DNA of 64,000 bases. Origin: Hyphomicrobium sp. LHD-15. Its GTDB lineage: Bacteria > Pseudomonadota > Alphaproteobacteria > Rhizobiales > Hyphomicrobiaceae. Below are positions 32,791 through 39,977 of the stretch, piece by piece; positions within the stretch are counted from its first letter, which is position 1, and every line of letters starts with the position of its first letter. The position numbers were made by a program, and so were the translations under genes. Where the stretch lies: the NCBI RefSeq assembly GCF_031157355.1, contig NZ_JAVIFT010000001.1, forward strand, positions 682,001 to 746,000, read 5' to 3'. The notes beneath the pieces were generated by a model. That model saw only the letters and a list, made by a program, of their open reading frames with translations, was not told the DNA's origin and did no database searches.

Positions 32791-33225
32791 TTAAGCTGCG
32801 ACCGCTTGTCCCTGGATGCCGTATCCCTCGGTCGCCGTGGTCAGGGCCTCGCTCATGGCGCGGGCCATCTTGTGCGGGTTGAAGCCCCACTTGGCGTTGA
32901 GGCGCATGTTGGCGGCGGCTTCGAGCGCGGTCACAAGTGCTGCCTGCCCATGAATGGCGATCAGATCGCTGACATGGCGCGTGCGGGTTGCTTCCAGAAA
33001 GCTGCGGAAGCGCAGCAGAACTGCCACCTTGCGAACGCGCGCGCGGGGCGAGATCTGCCAGAAATCCTGCTCGACGCGGCGCAGATCCTCGTCCGACAGC
33101 GTGACCGACGGCAGCAGCAGATTGCCAGCCGACAGAATCTTGAGAGCCAGTGCCAACTCGCGGGCGCCGACGCGCGGGACATCGCTGGTGTCGACGGCGG
33201 TTTCCGGGGCTTTTTCGTTCGTCAT
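32791..33225 (-). CDS. conserved-looking hypothetical protein, 144 residues
   Basis: A soluble, mostly helical protein of 144 residues without signal peptide or membrane segments. It contains LALALKILSAGNLLLPSVTLSDEDLRRVEQDFW and the segment MRLNAKWGFNPHKMARAMSEAL. I recognise no family. Its ribosome site (CGGAGC) lies inside the last codons of the cold-shock-like gene, 6 bases from whose stop it starts, so the two are probably cotranscribed and may work together. Confidence 0.7.
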   Translation of the reverse strand: MTNEKAPETAVDTSDVPRVGARELALALKILSAGNLLLPSVTLSDEDLRRVEQDFWQISPRARVRKVAVLLRFRSFLEATRTRHVSDLIAIHGQAALVTALEAAANMRLNAKWGFNPHKMARAMSEALTTATEGYGIQGQAVAA

Positions 33226-33231
33226 GGCGTT

Positions 33232-33465
33232 TTAGCTCCGTGTTTCGAGTTGGCTCGAACGGCCAAATACGGTCCAGGGCGATCCATGCAACAGGATGAT
33301 GTCCCTTGGACTATGTGATTCGACGAGGAAATCCACATCGAGACCGACCAGGCGGCCATCTGGGTTGCGGATATCCGTCTTCGAGAAGCGGTATTTCCGG
33401 CCATCTGTGGCGCTGATAACGCCGAAGCCGATGCTCTCGTGAAACTTGGTGATCTGACCTTGCAT
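33232..33465 (-). CDS. cold-shock-like nucleic-acid-binding protein
   Basis: A 77-residue protein whose first 45 residues follow the cold-shock domain pattern: MQGQITKFHESIGFGVISA, then DGRKYRFSKTDI, corresponding to the RNP1-like KGFGFI and the second strand pair of CspA. The RNP1 Lys and one Phe are altered (SIGFGVI). It may bind RNA or single-stranded DNA; a weakened aromatic patch is expected. GGAG lies 6 bases before the ATG at 33465; an in-frame frame opening at 33585 has no such site. It is the first gene of a pair with the 144-residue protein. Confidence 0.7.
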   Translation of the reverse strand: MQGQITKFHESIGFGVISATDGRKYRFSKTDIRNPDGRLVGLDVDFLVESHSPRDIILLHGSPWTVFGRSSQLETRS

Positions 33466-33783
33466 GACACGCTCCAACTCGGGTCGCGACCGCCAGAAGC
33501 GGCGCTTGGCAGAACCATGCCGGAGAAGGACAGCGTGTGCTGTTACGGCAGGAACATTCCCAATCTTTTCAATCGTGTCAACCAATCTCTTCGCAAGTGC
33601 ACATAGAAAAAGGCCGCCTTTACAGGCAGCCTTTCAATTGGTCGCAGGAAATTATGTACCGGTCGGTTAACTCACGCCGTCCGCTTCGTGCGGAGCGTGC
33701 ATCACGGGCCACTTTTCTCGTCGGTTTCGAGTGCCAACCCCGCGAGCGCAACAGGCGTGCGGGGCCGGCTCGGCGTGGAAGCC
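33466..33783. other. intergenic region between the exporter operon end and the cold-shock-like gene
   Basis: This 318-base gap holds the minus-strand terminator at 33607-33634 and, nearer the cold-shock-like gene, its promoter. I see no credible gene in the remainder. Confidence 0.6.
33607..33634 (-). terminator. terminator of the ABC exporter operon
   Basis: On the minus strand AAAGGCTGCC pairs with GGCGGCCTTT around a 6-base loop with one mismatch, and is followed by a T run. It lies about 150 bases after the adaptor-gene stop. Confidence 0.75.
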
Positions 33784-34812
33784 TTAGTTGTTACGAAAAA
33801 AGGCGTCTACCCGCATGCCCGGCTTCAACGCCGAGGCATTCCCCTCCAGTTCGATCGTCACTTCCATGACCTCGACGTCGGTCGGACGGAGCGGGCCGCG
33901 GGGGCCGATCTTGGCCTGGCCGAGGGTCGGCGCGATGCTCGTCACCTTGCCCTGGAACTTCTCATCCTGCACGCTCGTGCTCTTCACGTAGGCGGACTGG
34001 TTGAGCTTGATCTTGCCCACGTCGCCTTCGTCGACTTCGGCCTTCACGCGCAACACGCTCATATCGCCCATGACGACCAGCGCGAGTTCCGGCGAAGGCG
34101 CCACGACTTCACCCTGCTTGGCGTTGACCTGCAGGATGGTGCCTGCGTACGGCGAGCGAATGCGGGTTTTATCCAGAAGCGCTTCGGCCATTCTCACCTC
34201 GGCGCGCGCGGCGCTGACAGCGGATTCGGCGCGGCTCGGCGCCGGCAGGTTCGGCTTCGATTGAGCCTTCACGTAAGCGATGCGCTCGCGCTCGAGGCGC
34301 TCATTCGCATCCTTGAGGCGACGGCGTGAATCAGTGACGGCAGCTTCGCTTCCGGTCCCGCTGCGCTTCGCGGCGATGGCGTAATCCAACTCGATGCGGG
34401 CGCCCGTCACGGCGCGCTCCGCCGAGTAGATGGCGTCCTCTGCCTTGCGCACGTCCTCACGGCCCGAGGCAAAGGCCTTCTCGCGATCCTCGCGCAGCGC
34501 CTCGGCTTCGGTCTCGGCGGATGCGAGCTTGGCGCGTGCCTCGGCATCGTCCAGACGCAGCAGAAGCTCGCCTTCCTCGACCTTGTCGTCGACCTTGATC
34601 AGAACTTCCTCGACGCGCCCCATGTAGGTGGCGCCAAGGCGGATATCGCCGGACTTCGGCTCGACGCGGCCTGGTGCGGCGGCTTCGTAGTCCTTGGTCA
34701 CGAGCGGAAGCGCCTCGTCGGCAACGCTGCCGGCTTTGTACTTGTCGTAGGCGAGGTAGCCGCCGGCTCCGGCAAGCCCCAGCAGAATTATGAGGTTTAT
34801 GGGCTTCAACAT
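33784..34812 (-). CDS. HlyD/DevB-type periplasmic adaptor protein
   Basis: A 342-residue membrane-fusion protein. One N-terminal membrane anchor (residues 5-22, INLIILLGLAGAGGYLAY) is followed by a split lipoyl/barrel-sandwich domain (GRVEEVLIKVDDKVEEGELLLRLDD and the returning SPYAGTILQVNAKQGEVV), which flanks a coiled-coil hairpin (about 100-220). A beta-barrel domain follows. It links an ABC pump to an outer-membrane channel. The start is 15 bases after the ATPase stop. It is the last gene of the exporter group permease-ATPase-adaptor; no TolC-like gene is present here. Confidence 0.9.
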   Translation of the reverse strand: MLKPINLIILLGLAGAGGYLAYDKYKAGSVADEALPLVTKDYEAAAPGRVEPKSGDIRLGATYMGRVEEVLIKVDDKVEEGELLLRLDDAEARAKLASAETEAEALREDREKAFASGREDVRKAEDAIYSAERAVTGARIELDYAIAAKRSGTGSEAAVTDSRRRLKDANERLERERIAYVKAQSKPNLPAPSRAESAVSAARAEVRMAEALLDKTRIRSPYAGTILQVNAKQGEVVAPSPELALVVMGDMSVLRVKAEVDEGDVGKIKLNQSAYVKSTSVQDEKFQGKVTSIAPTLGQAKIGPRGPLRPTDVEVMEVTIELEGNASALKPGMRVDAFFRNN

Positions 34813-34827
34813 GGCGCGTGATGTTCC

Positions 34828-35601
34828 TTAAGCTGCAACGTTCTTTTTCTTGGACGCGGCTCCGTTGTCGGGGCCTTTATGGTTCGGCGAACGGTCGTCG
34901 CCGACAATGCGTCCGTCTTCGATGGTGATGATGCGATCGGCGTAATGAAGCGTGCGGTGATCGTGGGTGACCGCCATGACGGCGCGTGTCGGATCCTTTG
35001 CGACCTCGGCCAACAGCTCCATCACGGCCTTGCCGTTCTCGCTGTCGAGCGCTGCCGTCGGCTCGTCCGCGAGAACCACGGAAGGACGCCCCGCCAGCGA
35101 TCTCGCGATCGCGACGCGTTGCTTCTCGCCACCGGAAAGCTTCGAGGGGTAGGTGTGCATACGATGACTGAGACCAACCGACTTCAACGCCTCGGCGGCG
35201 GTTTCCATCGGATCGAGGGAGCGGGCATCACGCACGTCGAGCGCGACCAGAACGTTCTCGATCGCCGTCAACGTCGGAAACAGGTTGTAGCTCTGGAAGA
35301 CGAAGCCGACATGCTGGCGGCGAATCTCGGCGAGATCCTCGGACGACTGGCCGACGGCCTGATGACCCGCCAAATGCAATTCGCCGCTCGTCGCCGTGAG
35401 AATGCAGCCGAGGATCGAAAGGAGTGTTGTCTTGCCGCTGCCGGACGGCCCCATCAGCAGCGTCAACTCGCCGGGGCGCAGATCCATGCTGACGCCCTTC
35501 AGGATGTGAAGCTCGCCGGCCCCGGTCCCGATCGTCTTGACGATGTTGCGAGCCTCAAGAAGCGGGCGCGGCCCGTTCGATGCTCTTGGTGCCTTAGACA
35601 T
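34828..35601 (-). CDS. ABC transporter ATP-binding protein (MacB/LolD/DevA type)
   Basis: A 257-residue ATPase. Walker A is GPSGSGKTT (Lys57), the Q-loop lies in FVFQSYNLFPTLTAIENV, the signature is LSGGEKQRV, and Walker B is VVLADEPTAALD. The His-switch is in AVTHDHRTLHYADRI. The sequence belongs to the LolD/MacB/DevA group that drives extrusion or lipoprotein release through FtsX-type permeases. A GGGAGATC lies 10 bases before the ATG. It works with the adaptor gene downstream and the permease gene upstream. Confidence 0.95.
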   Translation of the reverse strand: MSKAPRASNGPRPLLEARNIVKTIGTGAGELHILKGVSMDLRPGELTLLMGPSGSGKTTLLSILGCILTATSGELHLAGHQAVGQSSEDLAEIRRQHVGFVFQSYNLFPTLTAIENVLVALDVRDARSLDPMETAAEALKSVGLSHRMHTYPSKLSGGEKQRVAIARSLAGRPSVVLADEPTAALDSENGKAVMELLAEVAKDPTRAVMAVTHDHRTLHYADRIITIEDGRIVGDDRSPNHKGPDNGAASKKKNVAA

Positions 35602-35895: not shown

Positions 35896-37095
35896 TCACC
35901 TATTGAAGACACCCGCAGGATCGATTCGCGTCACCTTACGGATCGCAGTGATGGCGGCGAAGACACACATGCCGACCGTCAGCGCGAAGAGATAGGCCGC
36001 GATCTTCGGCGTCATAACGATCGTCAACGTCGGCACTCTTACCGAGAGACGGTAGATCGCAAGCATGGCGAGCAGCATGCCGGCGGCATAGCCGAGCACC
36101 GCCGAGAGCAACGCCTGGATTAAGATGACGGCGTGGATGTAGCTCGCCGACGCACCCAACGCGCGCAGCGTGGCGAACTCGTTCAAGTGATCCTTGGTGC
36201 TGGCGTAGAGCGTCTGCGCGACAATAACGACGCCGACGATCGCGCCCAACACCATGCCGGTGATCAGTGCCAAGCCGGCGCCGGTCGAGAACATCCAGTA
36301 GTTGATGCTGCGCCGGGTGAATTCGTCATGGGTCAGAATCTCGGCGCCCTGGAGGCGGTCGGCCAAGCTCTTGCGCACGGCTTCCAGATTGGCACCCTTT
36401 TCAAGCGTCACCAGGACGTAGGTCGACTGGGATGCGTTCGCGCCGGTGAACTTGCGCGCGGTGGCGATGGGGGTGAAGCCATACGGAAGCGTGGTGAAGG
36501 AGCGAATGCCCTTCGTGACCGCCGTGACTTGCGCCCGCTGGTTGTTGATCTCCGCGTAATCGCCCTTCTTCTCGATGCCGAGATCCTTGAAGTAGGATCG
36601 ATCGACGGCAATCGCGTTCGGCAAGTTCAGATCGTCCACCTCGCCTTCGTCAATGCTCCATGGGCGCGTTCCGCCATTCGCCCAGTCGAGACCGACAAGG
36701 ATGAACGTCTTCTTGCCGCCTTCGGGCTTACGCCATGCGGAGAAGCTCACGATCATGTCCTCGGCCTTGAGCACACCCGGCGTCGAGAGCGCGGCGTACT
36801 TCTCATGGCCGATCAAAAGCGAGGGATCGTCGAAGCTCTTGGTGCCGAAGGGCACGATCCAAAGATCGGCGGGTGCCTTGTCGAGAACCGTGGCGATCTT
36901 GTTTTCCGATCCCTTGTAGAGACCGACCTCGATCGCAACCAACACCACGGAGAAGACGATACCGATCAGCGTGACGAGAAGGCTCATGCGATCATGAAAA
37001 AGATTCCGGTAGGCGATCTTGGGCGCCATCTTGATGACTTTGCCCTGAGCCGCCGGCGCGGCAGAACCCGCTCCCGCTGCAATCTTCTTCATCAT
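35896..37095 (-). CDS. FtsX-like ABC transporter permease (DevC type)
   Basis: A 399-residue permease with one N-terminal membrane segment (about 45-65), a large periplasmic MacB-like domain (LWIVPFGTKSFDDPSLL to about residue 240) and three C-terminal membrane segments (GLALITGMVLGAIVGVVIVAQTL and two more). KIAYRNLFHDRMSLLVTLIGIVFSVVLV near the start is typical of DevC. Length and topology match that family, whose substrates elsewhere include glycolipids. The start at 37095 has GGAG 6 bases upstream; a TTG four codons earlier is less likely. Confidence 0.9.
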   Translation of the reverse strand: MMKKIAAGAGSAAPAAQGKVIKMAPKIAYRNLFHDRMSLLVTLIGIVFSVVLVAIEVGLYKGSENKIATVLDKAPADLWIVPFGTKSFDDPSLLIGHEKYAALSTPGVLKAEDMIVSFSAWRKPEGGKKTFILVGLDWANGGTRPWSIDEGEVDDLNLPNAIAVDRSYFKDLGIEKKGDYAEINNQRAQVTAVTKGIRSFTTLPYGFTPIATARKFTGANASQSTYVLVTLEKGANLEAVRKSLADRLQGAEILTHDEFTRRSINYWMFSTGAGLALITGMVLGAIVGVVIVAQTLYASTKDHLNEFATLRALGASASYIHAVILIQALLSAVLGYAAGMLLAMLAIYRLSVRVPTLTIVMTPKIAAYLFALTVGMCVFAAITAIRKVTRIDPAGVFNR

Positions 37096-37328: not shown

Positions 37329-37838
37329 CTACTCGTTGCAGCCAACTGAAACCGTGGTGCCGATGGCAGGAATGAACTTCTTGCAGGTTTGGGGCGCATC
37401 GGATGTCGCGGCGGTCACCGTGTTGCTGGTGGAAGACGCCTCGGCCTTCACGTCGGATGCCGGTTGAGGCGTGACGGTCTCGGTTTCTTCAACCGGAACC
37501 GAACCCTGAATCAGCGCGGAGCTGCCGGTTACGCGGCTTTCCCCTTCCTTCGCCGGCTCGATTTTCGAATCGGCTTTCGGAGCGACGACCTTTGCCGGTT
37601 CCGCCTTTGCGACGCGGGGAGCAGGCTTATCGATGTGCCTGGCCTGCTGAACCGGAGCGCGCTTCTTTGGGATCGCCTGTTTCTGATAACCGGCGCTGCC
37701 ACCTTGAGCGGGCGTTGCGACGAACGTTCCAAGCGGACCGCCGAAGCCCAACCGAACGCCACCGCCGGCTTCGGCTACCGACGTCAACGCGAGCATGGCC
37801 GTGAGAGCGGATGCGAGAGCGAGAGACTTGGTATACAT
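37329..37838 (-). CDS. secreted protein with Cys-flanked C-terminal tail, member 1
   Basis: A 169-residue exported protein. The signal peptide is residues 1-24 (ending SVAEA), then comes a Gly-rich stretch (GGGVRLGFGG) and a low-complexity Lys/Pro/Ala linker. The C-terminal tail at residues 146-169 contains SDAPQTCKKFIPAIG and then TTVSVGCNE. The last 22 residues closely match the tail of the protein at 38081-38683. The two cysteines could form a disulfide loop. The start follows AGGAG by 6 bases. The function is unknown, and the family was not recognised. Confidence 0.8.
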   Translation of the reverse strand: MYTKSLALASALTAMLALTSVAEAGGGVRLGFGGPLGTFVATPAQGGSAGYQKQAIPKKRAPVQQARHIDKPAPRVAKAEPAKVVAPKADSKIEPAKEGESRVTGSSALIQGSVPVEETETVTPQPASDVKAEASSTSNTVTAATSDAPQTCKKFIPAIGTTVSVGCNE

Positions 37839-38016
37839 GGCGATCTCCTGGATCCGTGATCAGCTTGCCGGGCGTGTCTCGATGTTGACCGGCGTTGAAA
37901 TTCTGATCGGACCATGCGCCACGCCGACGTCCCTCGCTGTTCCAGGCGGCACAAATTTGTCATTTCGTGCGCGGATCTCGCGGCGCTGCTCTCGAACGTA
38001 AACCGTGCACAAATGA

Positions 38017-38048
38017 AAAGAGCCGACCCCATCTGGGACCGGCTCTTT
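38017..38048 (-). terminator. terminator between the two tailed secreted proteins
   Basis: On the minus strand AAAGAGCCG pairs with CGGCTCTTT, with an inner CCC/GGG stem and TTTTC after it. It ends the 38081-38683 transcript 33 bases past its stop, so the two related genes are probably transcribed separately. Confidence 0.8.
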
Positions 38049-38080
38049 GGCTTTGTGTCTTTGACTGTTACGCCCGAGTG

Positions 38081-38683
38081 TTAGCAGCCGACATTCACTG
38101 CGACGCCCAATGCCGGGACATAACGCTTGCAGGTATCGGGAGCGTCGGCGACGGTCGTCTTGGCCGGCTCGGCTTCGCTTGTCGCAACCGTCGTGTCGGC
38201 AACGGTCTTGTTGGCGGCGGTCTTGTCGGTCGTCGGCTCGATCTTCGCGGCATCGGCCTGGCTGACGTCAACCTGAGTGAGCGCAGCAGTGCTGGACGGC
38301 GCAGCGACGTAGGTGCTCGGCGTCTTGTTGGTGGCTGCGGTTTCTTCGACGGGCGGCTCATCGCCGTTGGCGACGGCTTCAGCTTTCGCCTTCTCGGCTG
38401 CAGCGGCCTGCTGCTGGCGCTTGGCGGCTGCGGCCTGAGCCTGAGCTTTCGCACGGGCCTGTGCCTGCGCCTTCGCCCGGGCTTGAGCTTGCGCCTGAGC
38501 GCGGGCCCGAGCGGCTTCTGCCTTCTTGGCCTGCTGAGCCTGGTGCGCCATGGCGCCGACGGCCAGAACACCGAGACCGATGCCGAGGCCAATGCCGCGA
38601 CCACCTGCTTCGGCTGCCGGGGTGATGGCCATGCTGGCGGCCACAAACGTTGCGATTGCTGTGATGCTGAGCTTCTTGGCCAT
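38081..38683 (-). CDS. secreted protein with Cys-flanked C-terminal tail, member 2
   Basis: A 200-residue exported protein. The signal peptide covers residues 1-26 (MAKKLSITAIATFVAASMA, ending AEA). A Gly-zipper-like hydrophobic stretch (GGRGIGLGIGLGVLAVGAMA) is followed by an Ala/Gln/Lys/Arg repeat that is probably helical, a Thr/Ala/Asp linker, and the tail ADAPDTCKRYVPALG then VAVNVGC at residues 179-200. The tail is shared with the neighbour at 37329-37838. The start at 38683 is supported by GGAG 6 bases upstream. It may sit in the envelope, but its job is unknown. Confidence 0.8.
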   Translation of the reverse strand: MAKKLSITAIATFVAASMAITPAAEAGGRGIGLGIGLGVLAVGAMAHQAQQAKKAEAARARAQAQAQARAKAQAQARAKAQAQAAAAKRQQQAAAAEKAKAEAVANGDEPPVEETAATNKTPSTYVAAPSSTAALTQVDVSQADAAKIEPTTDKTAANKTVADTTVATSEAEPAKTTVADAPDTCKRYVPALGVAVNVGC

Positions 38684-38902: not shown

Positions 38903-39778
38903 TTAAGCTGCGGACGTGGCGAGGCCGCCAACGACGCGGAGCTGGGCAGCGGGCTTTGCGCGGATGCTGTCGGTGATCGAGCCAGCGATGCGGGACACGA
39001 ACGCGGTCGTGCGATCGAGCACGACGTGACGCTGACGGTCGACGGTGACCATGTGATAGCTGTCATCCAGCACGACGAGGTCGACCGGTCCGGCCAGCTC
39101 GCGTTGCAGATAGGCCGCGTTGTCGAGCCCGGCATAGTCGTCCTCGCGGGCGTGCAGGATGAGAACGGGCTGCGAAATTCTGTTCAGCGACTTCATGACG
39201 ACCTTGGCCAGACGCCGCCGCTCGAGCACCGCGCCGCCCGGGGTCGATACCGGGGCCACCTTGGAGCCTTCCGATGCCATGGCGTTGCGGATGAAATCGC
39301 GGATGCGCTGATCCTTGATGCCAACGTGGATCGGCACCGGGAAACGGAACAGGTTGGCGACCCACTTGCTGTCGATCAGGCGGAAAAGCGGCAAATACCA
39401 GGGAATCTGGCGCCCGCTGAGCCACAACGTCGGCGAATAGAGTGCAACCGCGTGGACCTTGTCGGGGTGGCGCTCGGCCAGCATCAGGCTCAGCACGGCG
39501 CCCGTCGACAAGCCGCCGACGATCACCGTCTCGCAGGTTGCGGAGAGCTCTTCCAAGCCCTTTTCGGCGCTCTCGTACCAATCCTGCCAGGTGGTGGCCA
39601 TGAGATCGGCTTCGGTGCCGCCGTGGCCCGCCAGCTGGGGGCATAGGACCGTGTAGCCGTTCCGGGTCAAGCCATTGGCGACGAAGCGGATTTCACTGGG
39701 GGAACCGCACAGGCCGTGGATCAGCAGTACACCGACCCGCCCGCTCTTGCCTGCAAAACTCTTTTCGCTCTTCTGCAT
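38903..39778 (-). CDS. alpha/beta hydrolase (carboxylesterase/monoacylglycerol-lipase-like)
   Basis: A 291-residue cytoplasmic hydrolase. The HG oxyanion motif is in VLLIHGLCGSPSEIRFVA, the nucleophile elbow is GGLSTGAVLSL, the catalytic Asp is in LHAREDDYAG, and the His in LDDSYHMVTVD. Order and length match the serine aminopeptidase S33/carboxylesterase Est30 group. It probably cleaves short or medium acyl esters; the substrate is unknown. The Met at 39778 is preferred to a TTG four codons earlier. Confidence 0.9.
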   Translation of the reverse strand: MQKSEKSFAGKSGRVGVLLIHGLCGSPSEIRFVANGLTRNGYTVLCPQLAGHGGTEADLMATTWQDWYESAEKGLEELSATCETVIVGGLSTGAVLSLMLAERHPDKVHAVALYSPTLWLSGRQIPWYLPLFRLIDSKWVANLFRFPVPIHVGIKDQRIRDFIRNAMASEGSKVAPVSTPGGAVLERRRLAKVVMKSLNRISQPVLILHAREDDYAGLDNAAYLQRELAGPVDLVVLDDSYHMVTVDRQRHVVLDRTTAFVSRIAGSITDSIRAKPAAQLRVVGGLATSAA

Positions 39779-39977
39779 CTTACGCCCCAAATGATTTCCC
39801 GGCTCGATGGAGGGACGTTAGGGCCGCAAGAAAACACCCGCTGTTCCTGGGGATACAAAGCAATCCCGTTTGGTGACGCGCGGTTGAAAGTTTTAGGACT
39901 GCTGCGGTGGCGCTATGCTTTTTGCAGGTTGGCTCATCAAGGCCATTGACCTTGTCCCGCGCCCGGATTACACCAGC

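Follow-up and report, generated by a model that had tools for sequence, protein, structure and literature searches.

What could a tail shared by otherwise different exported proteins be for? Two genes for such proteins, A and B, lie side by side in the 64,000-nucleotide stretch of Hyphomicrobium DNA analysed here (the window), and an earlier note had described their products as a new-looking family of secreted proteins with a cysteine-flanked C-terminal tail. The layout that it reported, in which a signal peptide and a Gly-rich start are followed by a linker of low complexity, is seen in both translations, and each protein has at its end a tail of 16 residues bounded by cysteines. Both signal peptides end AEA-GG. 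B, whose start codon was assigned behind GGAG, has a glycine-zipper-like start followed by a linker rich in Ala, Gln, Lys and Arg. The motif proposed for the tail matches A as well as B: A ends ...DAPQT-CKKFIPAIGTTVSVGC-NE, with two residues beyond the second cysteine, and B ends ...DAPDT-CKRYVPALGVAVNVGC, terminating on that cysteine. The tail codons had been said to differ at many synonymous sites; synonymous change is real, but "many" amounts to six of the 13 shared residues (21 codons were aligned: 7 identical, 6 with synonymous and 8 with non-synonymous differences). The likeness of the two tails is not due to chance, since a 22-column profile returns six copies from this genome alone (E 3e-14 to 2e-3). 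A and B are probably transcribed separately, given a terminator-like hairpin behind B that was located by a pattern scan whose number of sites was not above that in shuffles. Coordinates are collected in Table 1.

Table 1. Features of the tail locus, in window positions.
Feature	Positions	Strand	Basis
DevB/HlyD-like periplasmic adaptor	33784..34812	-	NCBIfam/Pfam matches
DevA-like ABC ATPase	34828..35601	-	NCBIfam/Pfam matches
DevC1, MacB/DevC-like ABC permease	35896..37092	-	Pfam FtsX and MacB_PCD above cut-off; synteny; tree
Tail protein A (169 aa, exported, GGGVRLGFGGPLGTF class)	37329..37838	-	ORF and translation; orthologues; tail profile E 3e-14
Hairpin tail codons of A (C152-C167, CKKFIPAIGTTVSVGC)	37338..37385	-	AlphaFold2 hairpin, block pLDDT 80-87, remainder near 50
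Terminator-like hairpin 3' of B	38017..38048	-	Pattern scan, 14 pairs
Tail protein B (200 aa, exported)	38081..38683	-	ORF and translation; tail profile E 9.8e-12
Hairpin tail codons of B (CKRYVPALGVAVNVGC), extreme C-terminus	38084..38131	-	Translation and profile match
Alpha/beta hydrolase, far side of tail genes	38903..39790	-	Position kept in many genera

The six copies in the genome, detected with a profile of 32 tails (A1), are A, B, two proteins with a CISCNY(V/T)PEVV start, one Gly/Cys-rich protein and one exported TPR protein. For the family census we used a broader profile (A4), and found the tail in 83 of 103 Hyphomicrobiaceae genomes, at 1-10 copies each; orthologues of A were searched with a full-length class-A alignment. 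Named matches are nearly all Hyphomicrobium, H. zavarzinii ATCC 27496 among them. Outside the family, no full-length tail was found in overlapping draws of 297 and 347 genomes from the order, 289 from the class and 349 from the phylum. Weak hits elsewhere, in further families, classes and phyla, were rejected as partial matches to the tail in reading frames that are short or unrelated. Thus, the expectation that further matches would be found beyond this locus is amply confirmed, and the original observation is both correct and larger than first noted.

The tail is carried by at least eight classes of body (GG(V/I)RLGFGGPLG, glycine-zipper-like, CISC, Gly/Cys-rich, WCDDC, TPR, W(F/T)DG domain and Clp-protease-like), assigned by motif and in part roughly, and the proteins are otherwise not homologous, forming a family of exported proteins united only by its C-terminus. 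The Clp-protease-like body is a single, weak case (E 8e-4, slightly under the cut-off). A signal peptide had been expected on every match. By hydropathy and AxA rules complete members do carry one; otherwise, the tail falls within a segment predicted to be periplasmic. We considered whether the N-terminus of the CISC class is lipidated and did not adopt this reading, because the residues preceding the cysteine do not match a typical lipobox. A small W(F/T)DG...W domain with paired cysteines is common to tail proteins of several genera (L130, L132, L121, L096, L097 and L098); it had no Pfam match in the single member scanned, L132. Tail proteins of genus g25 (L039, L057 and L158) have long, strongly cationic repeats of the AAARKAAARK type, which look as if they were suited to polyanion binding.

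Both cysteines are present in all 127 collected tails, constantly 14 residues apart; the collecting pattern itself demanded this spacing, which was taken from profile hits, all of which had it. The tails follow the pattern C-[KR]-[KR]-[FY]-[IVFL]-[PA]-[SA]-x-G-x-T-[VIL]-x-V-[PGA]-C; of the 127, 118 have Gly at position 9 and 121 have Val at position 14. A divergent form, C-R-[RK]-[FY]-S-[AP]-A-I-A-x-[LV]-[IV]-x-V-P-C, is found in genus g11. The suggestion that the tail always ends at the second cysteine fails: A itself runs two residues further, the family has 0-8 residues beyond it, and two tails are internal (L128 and L250). The clearest internal copy is in L250 (3140-6640, + strand), a membrane protein of 1167 aa in which a cyclase domain and a hydrophobic segment are combined with two PDZ-Sel1-PG_binding units; the first of these units is closed by the tail, which stands between the two. 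AlphaFold2, run on A with 17 sequences, predicts a protein that is disordered (mean pLDDT 54) apart from the tail, which is modelled as a two-stranded beta-hairpin (residues 151-156 and 161-166, block pLDDT 87 and 80). C152 and C167 sit at the open end of the predicted hairpin, and a disulfide between them would be expected to close it. Neither a cleavage site nor a membrane segment was apparent in the tails of these proteins.

The cysteine-bounded motif had been described as unlike any known domain, and this description stands. The 32 tails, together with A and B, gave no Pfam or NCBIfam match above cut-off; the tail had no match among PDB sequences, and searches of PHROGs and of plasmid records returned nothing useful. 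A literature search combining Hyphomicrobium with tail-related subjects found no paper. We conclude that the tail is a real module that is absent from the libraries searched.

The strongest clue to the function of the tail is a neighbour that the earlier note did not mention, DevC1. The order in the window is alpha/beta hydrolase, tail genes, DevC1, DevA-like ATPase and DevB/HlyD-like adaptor. DevC1 holds a MacB periplasmic core domain (PF12704, 47.4 bits, cut-off 27) and an FtsX-like permease domain (PF02687, 49 bits, cut-off 25.5), and by both domains is a MacB/FtsX-type (type VII) ABC permease. Its best NCBIfam match is devC (TIGR01185), at 156 bits under a curated cut-off of 290; the ATPase (235 versus 296) and the adaptor (97.5 versus 129) likewise score under theirs. 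Thus, the exporter resembles DevBCA of cyanobacteria, in that adaptor, permease and ATPase are three genes with DevB, DevC and DevA as best matches, but it is a relative rather than a member, and no tail proteins are described for DevBCA in the literature examined.

Pairing of the tail with DevC1 is well supported. Among 76 DevC1 loci, two (G336 and G350) are cut by contig ends, and in 72 of the 74 testable loci DevC1 is immediately preceded by a tail gene in the same orientation (63 established by coordinates, 9 by reading the sequence); the two loci without a tail gene are in G021 (C61) and G326. The gap between tail gene and DevC1 has a median of 179 bp (range 90-725, 63 loci). Genus g11 was a candidate for DevC1 without tails and was rejected, since a divergent tail of the CRRYSAAIAGLVDVPC type is present in each of the 15 g11 loci read. 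In L153 (genus g23) the permease gene lies away from those for the ATPase, adaptor and hydrolase, yet is still beside a tail gene, and in L155 likewise only tail and permease are seen. In all 21 testable DevC1 genomes with a single detected tail, that tail is the one adjacent to DevC1.

Across the 103 genomes, 74 have DevC1 and a tail, 1 has DevC1 alone, 9 have a tail alone and 19 have neither, where DevC1 was assigned at E < 1e-136 to the window protein, with the addition of the cut locus in G350. Tails are therefore present in 74 of 75 genomes with DevC1 versus 9 of 28 without it (Fisher p 5e-13, in a test that ignores relatedness). G326, the one genome with DevC1 and no tail, shows the longest branch of the DevC1 clade (0.82). 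For five of the tail-only genomes (G003, G327, G329, G344 and G271) the assembly is fragmented or incomplete, or the tail lies where a contig stops; the other four (G010, G013, G386 and G371) are reasonably complete and yielded a tail without any DevC1, and in G013 the hydrolase gene still adjoins the tail gene. No DevC1 was found outside Hyphomicrobiaceae among 239 sampled genomes of the order. The family has two DevC paralogues, and a tree sets DevC1 (26 rows, support 100/99) apart from DevC2 and its relatives. In the DevC2 loci read, DevC2 is accompanied by an alpha/beta hydrolase gene and by no tail gene. Several of them (L226, L228, L229 and L231) have a module of their own, in which the alpha/beta hydrolase is a different one and an exported DUF2147-like protein takes the place of the tail protein.

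Covariation was measured over 43 genus-by-class cells with BLOSUM62 scores, shuffling genus labels within class. Tail similarity was 61.3 for different bodies in the same genus, 54.0 between different genera and 58.7 for the same class in different genera, and the shuffles gave p 2e-4. Tails thus follow lineage more than body, as would be expected if a lineage-specific common partner reads them; domain copying within genomes could also produce this covariation.

We propose that the tail is a docking or sorting tag in a many-to-one relationship with the DevBCA/MacB-like exporter that contains DevC1, and give this reading a probability of roughly 45%. The tag would be a lineage-specific, 16-residue C-terminal beta-hairpin with a disulfide between its invariant cysteines. 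The 1-10 carriers of each genome would reach the periplasm by Sec, where the disulfide would form, and the hairpin would then dock on DevC1, at its periplasmic part, or on the adaptor; carriers would most likely be cargo moved to or across the outer membrane, or otherwise partner subunits. From sequence and gene order we infer physical docking on DevC1, with the direction (cargo, partner subunit or product anchor) a matter of conjecture. The reading draws on the position of the tail gene before DevC1 even where the permease has left its cluster, on co-occurrence across genomes, on the adjacency of lone tails to DevC1, on the long branch of DevC1 in tail-less G326, on the covariation of tails by genus over different bodies, and on the lack of a tail neighbour for the paralogue DevC2 in the loci read. 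There is also a precedent, since MacAB-TolC exports the enterotoxin STII, which reaches the periplasm via Sec and acquires its disulfides there; MacB-type permeases work in the periplasm, and little is known of how they recognise substrates (PMC5985334). Both systems combine a Sec-exported disulfide protein (predicted here), a MacB-type permease and an HlyD-like adaptor (PMC5985334). STII has no transferable tail of this kind, however, export of tail proteins by the pump is putative, and the separate ATPase and permease genes beside the tails resemble DevBCA rather than MacAB-TolC. Against docking stand the four tail genomes without DevC1 and the two internal tails, and the synteny may reflect co-expression or slow rearrangement. 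More broadly, a type VII (MacB/DevC-like) ABC pump might pick out many different periplasmic proteins by a transferable disulfide hairpin at their C-terminus, making a two-step secretion route with its own tag; this claim we regard as doubtful.

Co-occurrence of DevC1 and tails would also be accounted for if the hairpin anchored exported proteins to an envelope component, such as a special lipid, delivered by the DevBCA-like pump, so that pump and tags never touch. DevBCA exports a glycolipid in Anabaena (PMC8277102), and a lipid role is made plausible by the hydrolase of the cluster together with the complex of a type VII ABC transporter and a lipid hydrolase, YbbAP-TesA (PMC12646458). An anchor explains less well why the tail gene stays by the permease gene once the remaining cluster is gone, and we consider it unlikely. 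It is just as improbable, in our view, that the hairpin is a mere stabilising cap or self-association element, with DevC1 synteny incidental or due to shared regulation. The bodies are predicted to be mostly disordered, and a closed hairpin could shield their C-termini, but a cap predicts neither the co-occurrence with DevC1, nor the retention of the pair in rearranged genomes, nor tails on folded TPR and Clp-protease-like bodies.

Known C-terminal tags suggest a further possibility, namely a sorting signal removed by a dedicated enzyme in the fashion of PEP-CTERM or MYXO-CTERM. GlyGly-CTERM was tied to rhombosortase through adjacency in single-target genomes, and the tail resembles that system in that many targets are paired with one membrane protein, the gene for which adjoins the target gene in genomes that have a single target (PMC3237569). 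Like GlyGly-CTERM, PEP-CTERM/exosortase, LPXTG/sortase and MYXO-CTERM/myxosortase, it is a short C-terminal homology region found several times per genome on many exported, otherwise non-homologous bodies, and MYXO-CTERM also has an invariant cysteine (PMC11980579). When the 16-residue core was compared with these tripartite tags (LPXTG, PEP-CTERM, GlyGly-CTERM and MYXO-CTERM), it had no membrane helix, a run of at most eight residues after the second cysteine, and no NCBIfam match. Unlike those tags, it has a predicted cysteine-closed hairpin, lacks a basic cluster at the C-terminus and, in the genomes sampled, is confined to one bacterial family; two copies are internal; and the gene that tracks it encodes an ABC permease, not a protease. 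As the tail lacks both the transmembrane and the basic part of such tags, we judge cleavage very improbable.

If the docking reading is true, the hairpin tag and its linked pump would allow MacB substrate recognition to be tested directly, using cysteine mutants and a peptide of 16 residues. The tail also offers a handle on exported Hyphomicrobiaceae proteins that are otherwise unannotated.

Further genes lie beyond the adaptor in the window. A 144-aa protein (32791-33225, - strand), with no Pfam or NCBIfam match, accompanies the block of adaptor and hydrolase genes in a number of genera (L150-L152, L154, L156, L157, L159 and L160). Next to the adaptor gene, positions 33232-33585 (- strand) encode a small protein that contains a cold-shock-like stretch (GQITKFHESIGFGVISATDGRKYRF) and has a counterpart at the corresponding place in L160 (10247-10645).
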